A DNA stretch of 14,528 nucleotides from an uncultured Gemmatimonadota bacterium (GTDB lineage Bacteria > Gemmatimonadota > Gemmatimonadetes > Gemmatimonadales > Gemmatimonadaceae): assembly GCA_946480295.1 (NCBI GenBank), contig CAMLIT010000108.1:1-14528 (forward strand), given 5' to 3'. Positions within the stretch are counted from its first letter, which is position 1. The number at the start of each line of letters is the position of its first letter. Positions 1-4,782 of the stretch are shown in pieces. The translations under genes and the position numbers were made by a program. The notes beneath the pieces are model-generated. The model was not told where the DNA came from. It ran no database searches and saw only the letters and a program-made list of their open reading frames with translations.

Positions 1-431
1 ACACCGGCGGCTCGCTCGGCGAGACGTCGGCGCTGCTCATCCTGCTCTGCGGCGGGTACCTCGCCCTCCGGCGCTATCTCGACTGGCGCATCCCCCTGAG
101 CATCTTCGCCACGGTGGCGGCGTTCGCGGCGATCCTGCACCTGGCGAACCCGAAGTATCCGGGACCGCTGTTCATGCTCTTCTCCGGGGGCCTGATGCTC
201 GGCGCCGTGTTCATGGCGACCGACATGGTCACGGCGCCGGTGACGAGCGGGGGGAAATGGCTGTTCGGGCTCGGCATCGGCGTGCTCGTGGTGGTGATCC
301 GCGTCTGGGGCGGCCTCCCCGAAGGCGTGATGTACGCGATCCTGCTCATGAACGCGCTCGTCCCGTTCATCAATCGTGCGACGCAGCCGCGGGTGTTCGG
401 CACGCGCGTGGCGAAGGAGGTGGCCGGATGA
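1..431 (+). CDS. rnfD: RnfD, electron transport complex membrane subunit (5' end missing)
   Basis: This is the C-terminal part of RnfD, the integral-membrane subunit that carries covalently bound FMN in the Rnf ferredoxin:NAD+ oxidoreductase. The frame opens at base 3 and 142 residues are visible out of the roughly 320-350 usual for the family. The first residues read TGGSLGETSALLIL, the conserved RnfD/NqrB stretch that follows the flavin-attachment segment. The FMN-Thr site itself lies upstream of the window. Further hydrophobic segments follow, with the family motifs NPKYPGPLF, MATDMVTAPVT and YAILLMNALVPFINR. The stop TGA overlaps the rnfG start as ATGA at 428-431, so the two genes are translationally coupled. 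The identification is firm; only the N-terminus is missing because the window begins inside the gene. Confidence 0.96.
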   Translation, partial: TGGSLGETSALLILLCGGYLALRRYLDWRIPLSIFATVAAFAAILHLANPKYPGPLFMLFSGGLMLGAVFMATDMVTAPVTSGGKWLFGLGIGVLVVVIRVWGGLPEGVMYAILLMNALVPFINRATQPRVFGTRVAKEVAG

Positions 432-1093
432 GCATGGGCATGAGCGGCGGCCCGCCGCCGGCGGCCGCCAAGGACGTGCGCTCGTGGAAGCTGCTCGCGC
501 TCATGACGTCGGCGGGCGCCGTCGCCGGCTTCCTGATCGTCACCGCGTTCCAGGCCACGCTGCCGAGGATCGAGCGGCACCAGGGCGAGGTGATGCAGGC
601 GGCGATCCGCGAGGTGCTCGAGTCGCCGCCGAGCTTCGACACGCTGTACCTCGTGAAGGGCGCGCTGGCGAAGGCGCTGCCCGCGGGGACGAATCCCAAG
701 GACGTGGAGAAGGTCTACCTCGGGCACGACGCGGCGGGGAAGCGCGTCGGATTCGCGCTGAGCGCGTCGGGCAACGGCTTCCAGGACGCGATCACGCTGA
801 TGTTCGGCTACGACGCCACGGCGCACCGGGTGATCGCGATGAAGGTCATCGGGAACAAGGAGACGCCGGGGCTCGGCAACAAGGTCGAGACGGACAGCGC
901 GTTCGTGAACGGGTTCGTGAACGTCGAGGCGCCGATCGAGGGCGTGAAGAAGGGCGCCGGGAAGGGCGCGAAGAACGAGCTGGTCATGATCACCGGCGCC
1001 ACGATCTCGTCGCGCGCGGTCATCCGCATCATCAACGACGCGATCGGCCGGTGGCAGCCCCTGATGGACGCCTATCACGAGGAGACGAAGTGA
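428..1093 (+). CDS. rnfG: RnfG, covalent-FMN subunit of the Rnf complex
   Basis: RnfG (221 aa) is the membrane-anchored periplasmic flavin subunit of Rnf. A cytoplasmic leader rich in Gly/Pro is followed by one transmembrane helix at about residues 21-42, then the FMN-binding domain. Visible motifs are ETPGLGNK (about 145-152) and MITGATISS. In the latter, Thr192 sits at the position where ApbE attaches FMN through a phosphoester bond. The ATG at 428 overlaps the rnfD stop by four bases. A second in-frame ATG two codons later is possible but gives no better coupling. The frame stays open far upstream, but that extension lies over rnfD and is not coding. Downstream, the stop overlaps the next ATG by one base (TGATG). 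Confidence 0.96.
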   Translation: MSMGMSGGPPPAAAKDVRSWKLLALMTSAGAVAGFLIVTAFQATLPRIERHQGEVMQAAIREVLESPPSFDTLYLVKGALAKALPAGTNPKDVEKVYLGHDAAGKRVGFALSASGNGFQDAITLMFGYDATAHRVIAMKVIGNKETPGLGNKVETDSAFVNGFVNVEAPIEGVKKGAGKGAKNELVMITGATISSRAVIRIINDAIGRWQPLMDAYHEETK

Positions 1094-1236
1094 TGACGAC
1101 GATCGTGGGCGTGGTGCTCGCGGCGGTGCTGTTCGGCGTGTTCACCATGTTGCGTCCCAGGAACTCGGCGTGCACCGGGCACTGCGCCGGCTGCACCGGC
1201 GACGGGGCGTGCGACAAGGATGGAGTGAAACGATGA
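1093..1236 (+). CDS. 47-aa membrane-anchored four-Cys protein in the rnf operon (NqrM/FeoB-associated-like)
   Basis: This small protein has one N-terminal transmembrane helix (about residues 3-20), the basic patch RPR at 21-23, and a short Cys-rich tail CTGHCAGCTGDGAC holding Cys27, Cys31, Cys34 and Cys40. It starts at the ATG overlapping the rnfG stop (TGATG), with GGAG just upstream. It ends in an ATGA overlap with apbE, so it is almost certainly translated. The layout (single helix, then a small metal-binding Cys cluster) resembles NqrM, the maturation factor that supplies iron for the membrane Fe centre of Na+-NQR, and the FeoB-associated Cys-rich proteins. I see no direct family signature, so the NqrM-like role, iron delivery to the RnfA/RnfE cluster, is an inference from architecture and position. 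At this length it is easily missed by gene callers. Confidence 0.82.
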   Translation: MTTIVGVVLAAVLFGVFTMLRPRNSACTGHCAGCTGDGACDKDGVKR

Positions 1237-2231
1237 CCACCACATCGGAAGGCGTCCGGCAGCCGCTCGGCCGGCGCGAGTTCATCGGCTTCGGCATCGG
1301 CGCGCTGGTCGTTGCCGCGATCCCGCTGTCGCGCCGGCGCCCCGTGGGCGTGACGCGACGCACGCTGCCGGTGATGGGGACGATCGCCGAGCTCGCGGTC
1401 GTGCATCGCGACCCGCGGCAGGCGCACGCGGCGATCGACGTCGCGATGGCGGAGCTGCAGTGGGTGGAGCGCGTGATGACGCGCTTCACCGACGCTTCCG
1501 ACATCGGCCGCGCGAACCTCGGCGCGTGGCGCGACGGCGTGGCGGTGACCGCCGAGACGGCGCTCGTCGTCGGCGAGGCGCTGCGCTGGGCGGCGGCGAC
1601 GAACGGCGCCTACGACCCCGCCGTCGGCCGCACGGTGGCGCTCTGGGACGTGAAGCACCGCCACGAGCCGCCGCCGGCCGCGGCGCTCGCGCCCTTCGCC
1701 GGCCGGAAGCTGTACCACACGGTCGAGGTGGGGACGAGCCGCGGACGCGCCGTGCTGCGCTATCACGACCGCGACGCCAGCGTGGACCTGGGGAGCATCG
1801 CCAAGGGCTACGCCGTGGACCGGGCGACGGCGGTCCTGCGGCGGCACGGGATCGAGCACGCCGTGGTGGACGTCGGCGGCGACCTGTACGCGCTCGGCGC
1901 GGCGCCCGACGGCGAGCCGTGGCGCATCGGCGTCCAGTCGCCGTACGACGCCCGCGCGCTGATGGGCGAACTGCGCGTCGCCGACCAGGCGGTCGCCACG
2001 TCGGGGACGTACATCCAGTTCTTCCGCTATCGCGGCGTGCGGTACCACCACCTGATGGACCCGAGCACCGCGGCGCCGCGCGCGACGCCGGTGCAGAGCC
2101 TGACGATCGTCGCCGACAGCTGCATGCACGCGGACGTCGGCGCGACCGCGGTGTACGGCGCGAGCGCCGCCGAGGCGAATCGCATCCTCGCGCGCATGGC
2201 ACCCGGCGCACGGATCGCCGAAGTCATCTGA
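1233..2231 (+). CDS. apbE: ApbE, FAD:protein FMN transferase with twin-arginine signal
   Basis: ApbE transfers FMN from FAD to a Thr of RnfG and RnfD outside the cytoplasmic membrane. The 332-aa protein shows the family motifs DLGSIAKGYAVDRA (from Asp185), DVGGDLYALG (from Asp213), VATSGTY, HHLMDPSTAAP (from His272), and the Mg-binding DxxxT pair Asp301/Thr305. The usual DPxTG reads DPSTA here. The N-terminus has RREFIGFG at residues 14-21 followed by a hydrophobic stretch, which reads as a twin-arginine signal rather than the lipobox common in ApbE. Tat export would imply folding, perhaps with cofactor, before translocation. The ATG overlaps the stop of the 47-aa gene as ATGA. Its place between rnfG and rnfE makes RnfG/RnfD its obvious substrates. 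Confidence 0.94.
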   Translation: MTTTSEGVRQPLGRREFIGFGIGALVVAAIPLSRRRPVGVTRRTLPVMGTIAELAVVHRDPRQAHAAIDVAMAELQWVERVMTRFTDASDIGRANLGAWRDGVAVTAETALVVGEALRWAAATNGAYDPAVGRTVALWDVKHRHEPPPAAALAPFAGRKLYHTVEVGTSRGRAVLRYHDRDASVDLGSIAKGYAVDRATAVLRRHGIEHAVVDVGGDLYALGAAPDGEPWRIGVQSPYDARALMGELRVADQAVATSGTYIQFFRYRGVRYHHLMDPSTAAPRATPVQSLTIVADSCMHADVGATAVYGASAAEANRILARMAPGARIAEVI

Positions 2232-2263: not shown

Positions 2264-2611
2264 ATGAAGACCCAGATCGCGTACTGCTCCGCATGCGACC
2301 ACGACGTGCGGATCGCGCTCGCCGACGAGCCGCTGTTCGACGGGCACGCGAACCTCGTCGACCCGGAGATCGTGTGCCTCGAGATCGGCGAGAGCTGCAC
2401 GGGGCACATGTGTCCCATCGGCGCGCAGCCGTCCACCGTCATGAAGGCCCGCCTGGTGAAGAGCGGGATGACGCTGCACCTCCAGCCGATCGTGCGCGCC
2501 TGGTGCGAGGGGTGCAGCGGCGAGTCGGAGTTCGTGGTCATCGACAGGCAGTACGCCACCTGCCCGAGCTGCGGCCACACCGTCGCGCGGGCGGAGCTCA
2601 CGCCATCATGA
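2264..2611 (+). CDS. 115-aa double zinc-ribbon protein in the rnf operon, function unknown
   Basis: I do not recognise a named family. The 115-residue soluble protein has two Cys groups spaced like zinc ribbons or rubredoxin-type sites. The first is Cys8-x2-Cys11 with Cys45-x4-Cys50 (GESCTGHMCP), plus an extra Cys38. The second is Cys81-x2-Cys84 with Cys100-x2-Cys103 (CPSCGH). There is no signal peptide or membrane segment, so it should be cytoplasmic. The ATG at 2264 is preceded by GGAGAAGG, a good ribosome-binding site, and lies 32 bases after apbE. Its stop overlaps the rnfE start as ATGA. This tight placement among rnf genes suggests a role in assembly, or a Zn- or Fe-bearing accessory subunit. 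Either role is inference; a plain structural Zn-ribbon protein is equally possible. Confidence 0.85.
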   Translation: MKTQIAYCSACDHDVRIALADEPLFDGHANLVDPEIVCLEIGESCTGHMCPIGAQPSTVMKARLVKSGMTLHLQPIVRAWCEGCSGESEFVVIDRQYATCPSCGHTVARAELTPS

Positions 2612-3315
2612 GCCTCGTCGTCAAGGAAACGTCCACGCCGAAGACCGCGACCGGCATCCTCACGCGCGGGCTGTGGCACGAGAACCCGGTGCTCGTCCAG
2701 ACGCTCGGGCTGTGCTCCGCGCTGGCGGTGACGAACGCGGTGGCGAACAGCCTGGCGATGGGGCTGGCGACGACGTTCGTGCTCGTGTGCTCGGCGATCA
2801 TCGTCTCGACGATGCGGAAGTTCATCCCGCACCAGATCCGCATCACGACCTACATCCTGATCATCGCCACCTTCCTGGCGGTGGCCGACATGACGCTCGA
2901 GGCGATCGTGCCCGACGTGCACAAGGCGATGGGGCCGTACATCGCGCTCATCGTGACGAACTGCATCGTCCTCGGGCGGCAGGAGGCGTTCGCCTCGCGT
3001 CAGCCCGTGCCGCTGGCGATCCTCGACTCGCTCGGCAACGGCCTCGGGTTCACGATCGCGCTCCTGCTGATGGGCATCCCGCGCGAGGTGCTGGGGAACG
3101 GCACCTTCCTCGGCGTGCACGTGATGCCCGCCGCGTTCGAGCCGTGGGTGGTGATGATGCTCCCGCCCGGCGGCTTCTTCATGATCGGGTTCCTGCTCCT
3201 GGGCGCGAACTGGCGCGACCTGCGGACGCTCGCGCGCGAGCGCGCGGCGAAGGCCGCGGCGAAGGTCCAGCTCCCGCAGCCCGCGGCGAAGGAACCGGAG
3301 CCGGTGCTCGTATGA
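2608..3315 (+). CDS. rnfE: RnfE, membrane subunit of the Rnf complex
   Basis: RnfE (235 aa) is one of the paired, inverted membrane subunits that together hold the intramembrane [2Fe-2S] cluster of Rnf. About six hydrophobic helices are visible. The two cluster-ligand motifs are intact: LGLCSALAVTN with Cys36 and IVTNCIVLGRQEAFAS with Cys119. A further Cys61 lies in LATTFVLVCSAI, outside the usual ligand motifs. The C-terminus carries an extra tail of about 30 residues rich in Ala, Lys and Pro, longer than in typical RnfE. The start at 2608 overlaps the upstream zinc-ribbon gene by four bases (ATGA). The stop overlaps rnfA in the same way. The opening GLWHENPVLVQTLG is characteristic of the family, which supports the start chosen. 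Confidence 0.96.
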   Translation: MSLVVKETSTPKTATGILTRGLWHENPVLVQTLGLCSALAVTNAVANSLAMGLATTFVLVCSAIIVSTMRKFIPHQIRITTYILIIATFLAVADMTLEAIVPDVHKAMGPYIALIVTNCIVLGRQEAFASRQPVPLAILDSLGNGLGFTIALLLMGIPREVLGNGTFLGVHVMPAAFEPWVVMMLPPGGFFMIGFLLLGANWRDLRTLARERAAKAAAKVQLPQPAAKEPEPVLV

Positions 3316-3887
3316 ACGACCTCTTCTGGATCTTCATCTCCGCCGCCGTCGTCACGAACTTCGTCCTCGTCTACTTCCTCGGGCTCTGCCCGGTGATCGG
3401 CGTGACGTCGAAGAGCGCGACGGGGCTGCGGCTCGGGCTCGCGACGACGTTCGTGATGGTGCTGGCGAGCCTCGCGGCGTGGGTCCTCAACACCTACGTC
3501 CTCGACGCCGCGCCGTACCTGCGGGTGATCGCGTTCGTCGTCGCGATCGCGTCGATCGTGCAGATCGTCGAACTGTTCGTGCACAAGACGAGTCCCGCGC
3601 TCTACCGGGAGCTGGGCATCTTCCTCCCGCTGATCGCCAGCAACAGCCAGGTGCTGGGGATGACGATCTTCCAGACGAACCGCGGCTACACCCTGGTGCA
3701 GGGGCTGATGTTCGCGGTCGGCGGCGGGCTCGGGATCACGGCCGTGCTCTCGATCGTCGGCGGCATCCGCGAGCGGCTCGACCTCGCCCCGATCCCCGCC
3801 GTCGCGCGCGGCCCGGCGCTCGTCTTCATCATCGCGGCCACGCTGTCGCTGGTGTTCATGGGGTTCAGCGGGATGGGGGCGGCGTAG
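3312..3887 (+). CDS. rnfA: RnfA, membrane subunit of the Rnf complex, with Ser in place of a cluster Cys
   Basis: RnfA (191 aa) pairs with RnfE across the membrane. The length and sequence fit the family throughout: VTNFVLVYFLGLCPVIGV with ligand Cys26, LATTFVMVLAS, KTSPALYRELGIFLPLI, GIRERLDLAPIP and LVFMGFSGM. The exception is the second ligand motif. The family normally reads TNC here, but this gene reads IASNSQVLG, with Ser112 (codon AGC at 3645-3647) at the Cys position. The surrounding frame is clean, so this is a substitution and not a frameshift. No other Cys in RnfA obviously replaces it. The start overlaps rnfE by four bases. It is the last gene of the operon; no rnfB follows, so rnfB and rnfC probably lie upstream of the window. 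Confidence 0.95.
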   Translation: MNDLFWIFISAAVVTNFVLVYFLGLCPVIGVTSKSATGLRLGLATTFVMVLASLAAWVLNTYVLDAAPYLRVIAFVVAIASIVQIVELFVHKTSPALYRELGIFLPLIASNSQVLGMTIFQTNRGYTLVQGLMFAVGGGLGITAVLSIVGGIRERLDLAPIPAVARGPALVFIIAATLSLVFMGFSGMGAA

Positions 3888-3890
3888 CGG

Positions 3891-3960
3891 GAGGGGCGAG
3901 GGTCGAGGGTCGAGGGTCGGGGGTCGAGGGGCGAGGGGCGAGGGTCGAGGGTCGAGGGGC
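3891..3960 (+). repeat. Ten tandem G-rich heptads (GAGGGTC / GAGGGGC)
   Basis: Ten consecutive 7-base units run without a break from 3891 to 3960, three bases after the rnfA stop. Each unit is GAGGGTC or GAGGGGC except one, GGGGGTC. A partial unit (GAGAGAG) follows. The same unit appears in inverted form on the far side of the central palindrome. The array is noncoding. Confidence 0.93.
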
Positions 3961-3971
3961 GAGAGAGTGCG

Positions 3972-4055
3972 TGTCATCCTGAGCGAGCCGCGCGAGCGAA
4001 GGATCTGGCGCCGGCGCACCACGGCCAGATCCTTCGCCTGCGGCTCAGGATGACA
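3972..4055. repeat. Large imperfect palindrome (TGTCATCCTGAGC ... GCTCAGGATGACA)
   Basis: The outer arms are a perfect 13-bp inverted repeat, TGTCATCCTGAGC at 3972-3984 and its complement at 4043-4055. The inner arms are a perfect 14-bp inverted repeat, GCGAAGGATCTGGC at 3996-4009 and its complement at 4024-4037. Unpaired bulges of 11 and 5 bases lie between outer and inner arms, and the loop is 14 bases (4010-4023). This TGTCATCCTGAGC...GAAGGATCT type of sequence is, to my knowledge, a dispersed intergenic repeat in several GC-rich environmental phyla. It lies between two convergent operons, where a hairpin could end transcription from both sides, although there is no U-tract. Confidence 0.9.
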
Positions 4056-4074
4056 TCGTGGCTCCGTCTCACCA

Positions 4075-4146
4075 CTCGCCCCTCGCCCCTCGCCCCTCTC
4101 TCGCCCCCCTCTCTCGCCCCCCTCTCTCGCCCCTCGCCCCTCGACC
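4075..4146 (-). repeat. C-rich inverted heptad array abutting pth
   Basis: Three clean GCCCCTC units at 4078-4098 are followed by a longer variant (GCCCCCCTCTCTC) present twice in tandem, then more GCCCCTC/GACCCTA-like units. These are the reverse complement of the G-rich heptads at 3891-3960, so the whole 3891-4146 block could pair into one very large stem-loop. The array runs directly into the pth stop codon at 4147-4149. Confidence 0.85.
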
Positions 4147-4782
4147 CTAGCTCTTCGCGTTGTACCTGTTCATCGCCGCCTCGATCCCCTCCCACACCCA
4201 CACCCCGATCCCCTCCGTCACCGTCGGGAACAGCGCCCGCACGCGCTCCGCTTCGTCGGGGTCGAACTCGTCCAGCACGAAGTCCGCGAGGTTGCCGGGC
4301 TTGCGGCTCGGGACCTCGGGGCCGATTCCGATGCGCAGGCGCGGGTAGTCCTGGTTGCCGATCGCGTGCTCGATGCTCTTCAGCCCATTGTGGCCGCCCG
4401 CGCTCCCGCGCGCGCGGAAGCGGAAGCGGCCGACGGGGAGCGCGACCTCGTCGACGACCACCAGCAGGTCGACCTTCGGCGACCAGAAGGCGCGGCGGAG
4501 ATAGGTCCGCAGCACCGCGCCGCTCAGGTTCATGTAGGTGAGCGGCTTCACGAGGCGCACGCGGTGCGGGCCGACCTGCCCCGTCACGACGCGCGCCTCG
4601 CCGTCCTTCTTCCACCCCTCGAAATGCCAAACGTCGGCCAGGTGGTCGAGTACCCACCAGCCGACGTTGTGGCGCGTGCCTTCGTACTCGCTGCCCGGGT
4701 TGCCGAGGCCGAGAATGACCTTCACCGGCTCGTCGTCCGGGGCGTGCCGTGATCCGAAGAGCGAACGGACAAGACGGAGCAC
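4147..4782 (-). CDS. pth: Peptidyl-tRNA hydrolase
   Basis: Pth cleaves peptidyl-tRNA released from stalled ribosomes and so recycles tRNA. The motifs are complete: GLGNPG, TRHNVGWW with catalytic His38, KPLTYMNLSG with Asn85, VVVDEVALP with Asp111, SAGGHNGLKS with Asn132, and RLRIGIGP (numbering from the start at 4782). The GTG at 4782 gives 211 aa with an N-terminal extension of about 19 residues. A second GTG at 4725 gives VKVILGLGNPG and 192 aa, which matches the usual family start and length. Neither has a convincing ribosome-binding site, so the shorter form may be the true one. The gene follows rplY by 11 bases in the longer version and is last in the minus-strand operon. Confidence 0.96.
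   Translation of the reverse strand: MLRLVRSLFGSRHAPDDEPVKVILGLGNPGSEYEGTRHNVGWWVLDHLADVWHFEGWKKDGEARVVTGQVGPHRVRLVKPLTYMNLSGAVLRTYLRRAFWSPKVDLLVVVDEVALPVGRFRFRARGSAGGHNGLKSIEHAIGNQDYPRLRIGIGPEVPSRKPGNLADFVLDEFDPDEAERVRALFPTVTEGIGVWVWEGIEAAMNRYNAKS

Follow-up and report, generated by a model that had tools for sequence, protein, structure and literature searches.

The rnf gene cluster in the window and in Gemmatirosa kalamazoonensis

The window, by which we mean the whole 14,528-nucleotide stretch of DNA analysed, opens within rnfD; the genes that follow are rnfG, a 47-codon gene for a cysteine-rich membrane protein, apbE, a gene for a zinc-ribbon-like protein, rnfE, and rnfA. The features to which the analysis refers are the following:

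3..431, + strand: RnfD, C-terminal part (TIGR01946 rnfD, 157 bits against a cut-off of 207, the gene being partial; PF03116); the region for FMN attachment is not in the window
428..1093, + strand: RnfG, FMN-binding subunit (TIGR01947, 90 bits against a cut-off of 102; PF04205), with the TGAT threonine motif (ITGATISS)
1093..1236, + strand: 47-amino acid membrane protein of the FeoB-associated type with four cysteines, CxxxCxxCxxxxxC (PF12669, 29.4 bits against a cut-off of 27)
1233..2231, + strand: ApbE, FMN transferase (PF02424, 229.5 bits)
2264..2611, + strand: cysteine-rich zinc-ribbon-like protein, 115 amino acids (zinc-ribbon matches weak and under the cut-off; homologues adjoin rnf in relatives)
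2608..3315, + strand: RnfE (TIGR01948, 216.7 bits against a cut-off of 213.4; RsxE-type subfamily, 231.5 bits against a cut-off of 184)
2713..2715, + strand: RnfE Cys36, cluster ligand, kept (Cys in 120/120 best listed relatives)
2788..2790, + strand: RnfE Cys61, variable (Cys in 36/120 best listed relatives)
2962..2964, + strand: RnfE Cys119, cluster ligand, kept (Cys in 120/120 best listed relatives)
3312..3887, + strand: RnfA, 191 amino acids, with Ser at the place of the second ligand Cys (TIGR01943 rnfA, 201.4 bits, the best family but below the cut-off of 229.3)
3387..3389, + strand: RnfA Cys26, cluster ligand, kept (Cys in 120/120 best listed relatives)
3636..3650, + strand: RnfA residues 109-113, ASNSQ, the altered ligand loop, TTNCA elsewhere (alignment of clade against other rows)
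3645..3647, + strand: RnfA Ser112 codon AGC, fourth ligand position (sequence and relatives)

The locus does not fall into the Na+-NQR subtype, because the window proteins scored below the cut-offs of the nqrE model (127 bits, cut-off 248) and the nqrD models (175 and 193 bits, cut-offs 245 and 235) and lower than with the Rnf models. The stretch between rnfA and the next gene (3880-4160) contains tandem repeats with an imperfect 7-base unit (GAGGGTC/GAGGGGC), along with the reverse complement of these; they flank the inverted pair TGTCATCCTGAGC ... GCTCAGGATGACA. Some ORFs adjoining rnf in the window read as housekeeping genes, for instance those for peptidyl-tRNA hydrolase and ribosomal protein L25.

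Gemmatirosa kalamazoonensis is a cultured species with an rnfA 86% identical to that of the window. The gene sits on a 1,106,233-base replicon (NZ_CP007129.1) that is included in a plasmid collection, whereas the rnf genes of the window lie beside the housekeeping-like ORFs. The order in this species is an oxidoreductase-like gene pair, RnfB, a NifJ-like protein, RnfC, RnfD, RnfG, the small cysteine protein, ApbE, RnfE, RnfA, and the zinc-ribbon protein. RnfB, RnfC, RnfD, and RnfG are thus all encoded in one operon here; the window contains part of RnfD and RnfG, and because RnfB and RnfC both fall outside it, their membership of the operon comes from the relative only. RnfB of G. kalamazoonensis reached 60.7 bits, the cut-off being 68.7. 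An impression gained from locus L053 that the operon lacks RnfB was overturned, since RnfB is present. In Gemmatimonadota, Bacteroidota, and Pseudomonadota relatives, RnfB, the NifJ-like protein, RnfC, D, G, E, and A also occur together, within the reach of the contigs. The first two genes of the G. kalamazoonensis operon read as a 2-oxoacid:ferredoxin oxidoreductase pair, and its NifJ-like protein resembles pyruvate:ferredoxin oxidoreductase and contains ferredoxin domains. A natural reading of this gene order is that ferredoxin reduced via pyruvate oxidation would feed the Rnf complex.

The threonine motifs for putative covalent attachment of FMN are kept, both in RnfG (TGAT, in the window and in G. 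kalamazoonensis) and in RnfD (TAAT, in G. kalamazoonensis). An Asp is expected three residues ahead of the RnfG motif. This position is Val in the window and in the Gemmatirosa locus (L066), Gln in L069, L070, and L002, and Asp in L067 and L068; ApbE is present nonetheless where the Asp is missing.

The accessory genes vary in placement. In the window and in Gemmatirosa, rnfG and rnfE are separated by the small cysteine gene and apbE, whereas in relatives with all four ligand cysteines (four-Cys relatives; L002, L069, and L070) rnfE and rnfA directly follow rnfG and the two genes come later. The zinc-ribbon-like gene stands before rnfE in the window and after rnfA in Gemmatirosa; homologues of its product (window 2264-2611) are found beside rnf in many Gemmatimonadota loci and are strongly diverged in Gemmatirosa. 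Homologues of the small cysteine protein adjoin rnf in a number of relatives, and we regard this 47-amino acid protein as a putative iron or cluster delivery factor. In the Vibrio cholerae NQR, NqrM is seemingly required to insert the corresponding cluster, according to an excerpt of PMC12174285. By analogy, the small cysteine protein is a possible functional counterpart of NqrM.

Ser112 of RnfA and the remaining cysteines

An earlier note on this DNA had stated that RnfA carries a serine where the family has an iron-sulfur ligand cysteine. Alignment of the window protein with solved RnfA chains (matches at 1.2e-43 to 2.1e-40) confirmed this: codon 3645-3647 is AGC and falls at the position of the second cluster Cys in solved Rnf/Nqr proteins, the TNC motif reading SNS (IASNSQVLG aligned with ITTNCAVLG). 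The frame is intact around codon 112 (3312-3887, + strand, 191 amino acids), and the other three ligand cysteines are in place, as the note had said: RnfA Cys26 (3387-3389), RnfE Cys36 (2713-2715), and RnfE Cys119 (2962-2964). The note had also proposed to align RnfA homologues in order to see whether the serine is clade-wide. It is: ASNS was present in 120/120 of the closest clusters listed (best 120 of 6646), and the organism names given among the closest RnfA rows are Gemmatimonadaceae. G. kalamazoonensis RnfA has ASNS too, and its Ser112 codon is also AGC. The related genomes thus gave AGC or ASNS and not the TGC at 3645-3647 that would have pointed to a misread codon, and because the 120 closest listed clusters and G. 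kalamazoonensis all agree, Ser112 is not a sequencing error. A second RnfA was not found in the G. kalamazoonensis genome: at E 0.001, only this RnfA and its RnfE matched. Comparing the window with G. kalamazoonensis by the NG86 method gave a dN of 0.085 and a dS of 0.376 for rnfA (dN/dS near 0.23), and a dN of 0.141 and a dS of 0.408 for rnfE (dN/dS near 0.35); both genes are under purifying selection. With dN well below dS, and with all 120 listed relatives and the record of a named replicon in agreement, a sequencing error or a decaying gene copy can for practical purposes be dismissed.

RnfA Cys26, RnfE Cys36, and RnfE Cys119 are each Cys in 120/120 of the best listed rows (for RnfE, best 120 of 7735), the RnfA and RnfE sets having been found separately and not matched genome by genome. 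The metal site that holds four cysteines elsewhere therefore has three here, with Ser112 at the fourth place in 120/120 of the best listed relatives. The earlier suggestion that RnfE Cys61 might take over as ligand did not survive the comparison, because this position is Cys in only 36 of the best 120 RnfE rows, the others having Gly (75), Ser (6), or Ala (3), and it is Gly in G. kalamazoonensis. RnfA has no second cysteine in 118/120 of the best listed rows, and RnfE has exactly two, the ligands, in 82/120; therefore, no cysteine of RnfA or RnfE replaces the lost one throughout the clade. RnfD Cys209 (G. kalamazoonensis numbering; the residue is present in the window RnfD) was rejected as a replacement, since it also occurs in the four-Cys relatives G051, G227, and G131 and is absent in G013 and G001. 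A cysteine of RnfG was rejected as well, RnfG being devoid of cysteine in the window and in six Gemmatimonadota loci. Although RnfE Cys61 and RnfD Cys209 are both present in the window proteins, replacement of the lost ligand by another cysteine, such as one of these, is accordingly very improbable.

The change in RnfA extends beyond the ligand itself. In the alignment of 121 clade rows, columns 109, 110, 112, and 113 are fixed, whereas elsewhere these columns are T, T, C, and A in 101, 102, 102, and 101, respectively, of 102 comparison rows, from which NqrE-like rows were left out. Between the 121 clade rows and the 102 others, 13 RnfA positions show fixed clade-specific differences, and 5 of them (109, 110, 112, 113, and 114) lie no more than 3 residues from a ligand (hypergeometric p 9e-4, with the 3-residue distance chosen after the sites had been seen). 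RnfE has six fixed clade differences, which do not cluster around the ligands (p 0.31), and only one of them adjoins a ligand: residue 37, beside Cys36, is Ser in the window and Pro in 99/99 other rows (NqrD-like rows left out). An AlphaFold model of the RnfA monomer, built on a 28-row alignment, had a mean pLDDT of 67.3, a modest confidence, and showed helix 105-124 without a break, at low confidence. One RnfA of the clade, P0009, is 220 amino acids long owing to an inserted duplicate-like stretch (alignment columns 146-177), which may be an assembly artefact.

Distribution, origin, and divergence

Outside the clade, RnfA was read in several sets of genomes. One search of named genomes found 21 relatives with identities of 42-59%, including a Gemmatimonadota MAG, and all 21 have TTNC. 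In a survey of 395 Gemmatimonadota genomes, 86 had a match and 85 of these were read (G340 was left out). Together, the Gemmatimonadota loci and the 21 named-genome loci make up 121 RnfA-like rows, with a few places appearing in duplicate. At column 112, 119 of these rows have Cys; the other 2 have Ser, and both come from the Gemmatirosa gene, which had been retrieved on two occasions. Column 26 reads Cys in 119 rows, and 2 truncated rows lack it. Among 179 genomes of the G. kalamazoonensis family, 37 matched (G407 and G410 were left out of the reading), and a close match was found only in G. kalamazoonensis itself (86%; the next at 60% or less); the loci newly fetched from this family had TTNC in 22/22 cases, comprising 4 new genes and 18 repeats of places already read. 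Two further phyla were represented by 200 and 118 genomes, of which 131 and 35 matched, respectively; 30 loci were read in each, and Cys was present at both RnfA columns in 60/60, two of which repeat known genes. Ser112 is thus fixed in one lineage, and none of the rows read outside it has this serine.

We also built quick trees with support by SH-aLRT only; many forks near the clade are open in them, and long branches were flagged. In the RnfA tree (127 rows, 16 with Ser112), the clade formed one group (SH-aLRT 100) nested among Gemmatimonadota rows; its stem is long, at 2.15 changes per column. Masking the motif columns and leaving out nine NqrE-like rows (118 rows) again produced a single clade (SH-aLRT 100), for which one change is needed. 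The RnfE tree (117 rows) likewise recovered the clade as one group (100) inside Gemmatimonadota, with a stem of 0.63, which is ordinary for that tree. This indicates that the Cys to Ser change at RnfA 112 arose once, inside the Gemmatimonadota RnfA.

The subunits have not diverged equally. We compared the identity of Gemmatirosa to four-Cys relatives (3 or 5 pairs) with the identity among those relatives (3 or 10 pairs). The values were 59.1% versus 72.7% for RnfA and 56.4% versus 65.7% for RnfE, and gaps were also apparent for the small cysteine protein (48.6% versus 66.0%), ApbE (51.7% versus 57.6%), and the zinc-ribbon protein (39.9% versus 61.9%). The gap was at most 2.3 points for RnfB (63.7% versus 64.8%), NifJ (63.6% versus 63.5%), RnfC (69.8% versus 72.1%), and the C-terminal part of RnfD (75.1% versus 76.8%), and 3.3 points for RnfG (49.8% versus 53.1%). 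From these figures, RnfB, NifJ, RnfC, RnfD, and RnfG stand at about the usual distance, and RnfA, RnfE, and three of their neighbours stand further away. Because the small cysteine protein, the zinc-ribbon protein, and ApbE are among the diverged proteins, the divergence extends beyond the scaffold of the cluster.

Possible ligation of the RnfA/RnfE cluster

In known complexes, the [2Fe-2S] cluster of RnfA/RnfE is the carrier between RnfB and RnfG (excerpt of PMC12174285), and RnfA Cys113, in Clostridium tetanomorphum numbering, is called invariant in an excerpt of PMC9588780. We give a probability of roughly 0.55 to the reading that the operon encodes a complete, working Rnf-type complex in which the RnfA/RnfE site has been remodelled to three cysteines and one serine, Ser112 binding the [2Fe-2S] cluster. 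The earlier note had named this ligation next to a rescue by Cys61; the rescue falls away, and the serine ligation is the most economical reading because the loss of one ligand Cys is clade-wide while the other three are kept (120/120 listed). The metal site would then consist of RnfA Cys26, RnfE Cys36, RnfE Cys119, and RnfA Ser112, the oxygen of Ser112 most likely binding one iron of the cluster. Electrons would still pass from RnfB through the cluster to the FMN of RnfG, and the potential of the cluster would probably be lower than at a four-cysteine site. We infer the presence of the cluster, its serine ligation, and the direction of the potential shift from sequence comparison. The crowding of fixed changes around the RnfA ligands and the extra divergence of RnfA and RnfE favour this reading; the scatter of the fixed RnfE changes, the ordinary RnfE stem, and the divergence of the three neighbours weigh against it. 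Excerpts of PMC6006211 treat one-serinate [2Fe-2S] clusters and report that Cys to Ser changes in rubredoxin bring the potential down by 100-200 mV.

A [2Fe-2S] cluster could also be held by just the three cysteines, with the fourth site vacant or taken by water, hydroxide, or another atom, for example one of Gln113 or Asn111; Ser112 would then only fill space and form hydrogen bonds. The invariance of the three cysteines fits this arrangement too, and so does the fixation of Gln113 and Ser110 in the clade along with Ser112. However, all 121 clade rows have Ser112, and a residue that only fills space would not have to be so strictly conserved. In the V. cholerae NQR, moreover, the NqrD-C29A variant, in which one ligand is changed from Cys to Ala, is devoid of the cluster according to an excerpt of PMC10643135, so that the fourth ligand matters and three cysteines alone may not suffice. 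We therefore consider a cluster held by three cysteines unlikely. Since a role open to any small residue predicts variation at position 112, its invariance makes the site with three cysteines and one serine the simplest account.

Less likely again is that the cluster has been lost or is now a mononuclear iron, with electrons bypassing RnfA/RnfE or no longer passing there. The disappearance of one of four ligands together with its flanking motif would agree with such a loss, as would the long stem of the RnfA clade. Against it, the other three cysteines are invariant; G. kalamazoonensis has retained RnfB, RnfC, RnfD, RnfG, and ApbE; and rnfA and rnfE are under purifying selection. The three cysteines stay fixed while Cys61 drifts, and without a cluster nothing obvious would hold them.

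A more far-reaching form of the serine-ligated reading, to which we give slightly less than an even chance, is that a natural intramembrane [2Fe-2S] site of three cysteines and one serine works in an ion pump driven by redox reactions, and that its parts (the RnfA loop, RnfE Ser37, and possibly a delivery factor) have been retuned together to a shifted potential. Engineered serine-ligated [2Fe-2S] ferredoxins exist, judging from titles cited in PMC9737848; in those of C. pasteurianum and Anabaena one Cys ligand is changed to Ser, which is the chemistry proposed here. Those are soluble laboratory mutants, whereas the present case would be a natural site within a membrane pump. In the open-licence PMC literature, including that on Rnf with Gemmatimonad or Gemmatirosa, we recognised no description of a natural RnfA variant with a serine ligand. 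If serine ligation is correct, it would break the four-cysteine rule of the Rnf/Nqr family and shift the potential of a step that has been proposed as the gate for ion movement. The conserved natural ligand change would then offer a ready-made test of what sets the potential of the site and of whether pumping needs four-cysteine ligation, and the test is practical because the Ser112 variant is carried by a named species, G. kalamazoonensis.

The four-cysteine Rnf of C. tetanomorphum (RnfABCDGE, 7zc6) shares with the window the homologous RnfA/RnfE pair, the three ligand cysteines, the RnfG FMN motif, and ApbE, and with the Gemmatirosa operon also RnfB and RnfC; it differs in having Cys113 in place of the serine, TTNCA in place of ASNSQ, and CP in place of CS at the first RnfE ligand. 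The cluster site is common to NqrD/NqrE of Na+-NQR, which has NqrA and NqrF as partners where the Gemmatirosa operon has RnfB and RnfC. Like the clade, nine NqrD-like/NqrE-like Gemmatimonadota rows have CS at the first ligand of RnfE and, in contrast to TTNCA, an Ala at RnfA 109; unlike the window RnfA, all nine NqrE-like rows keep the cysteine.
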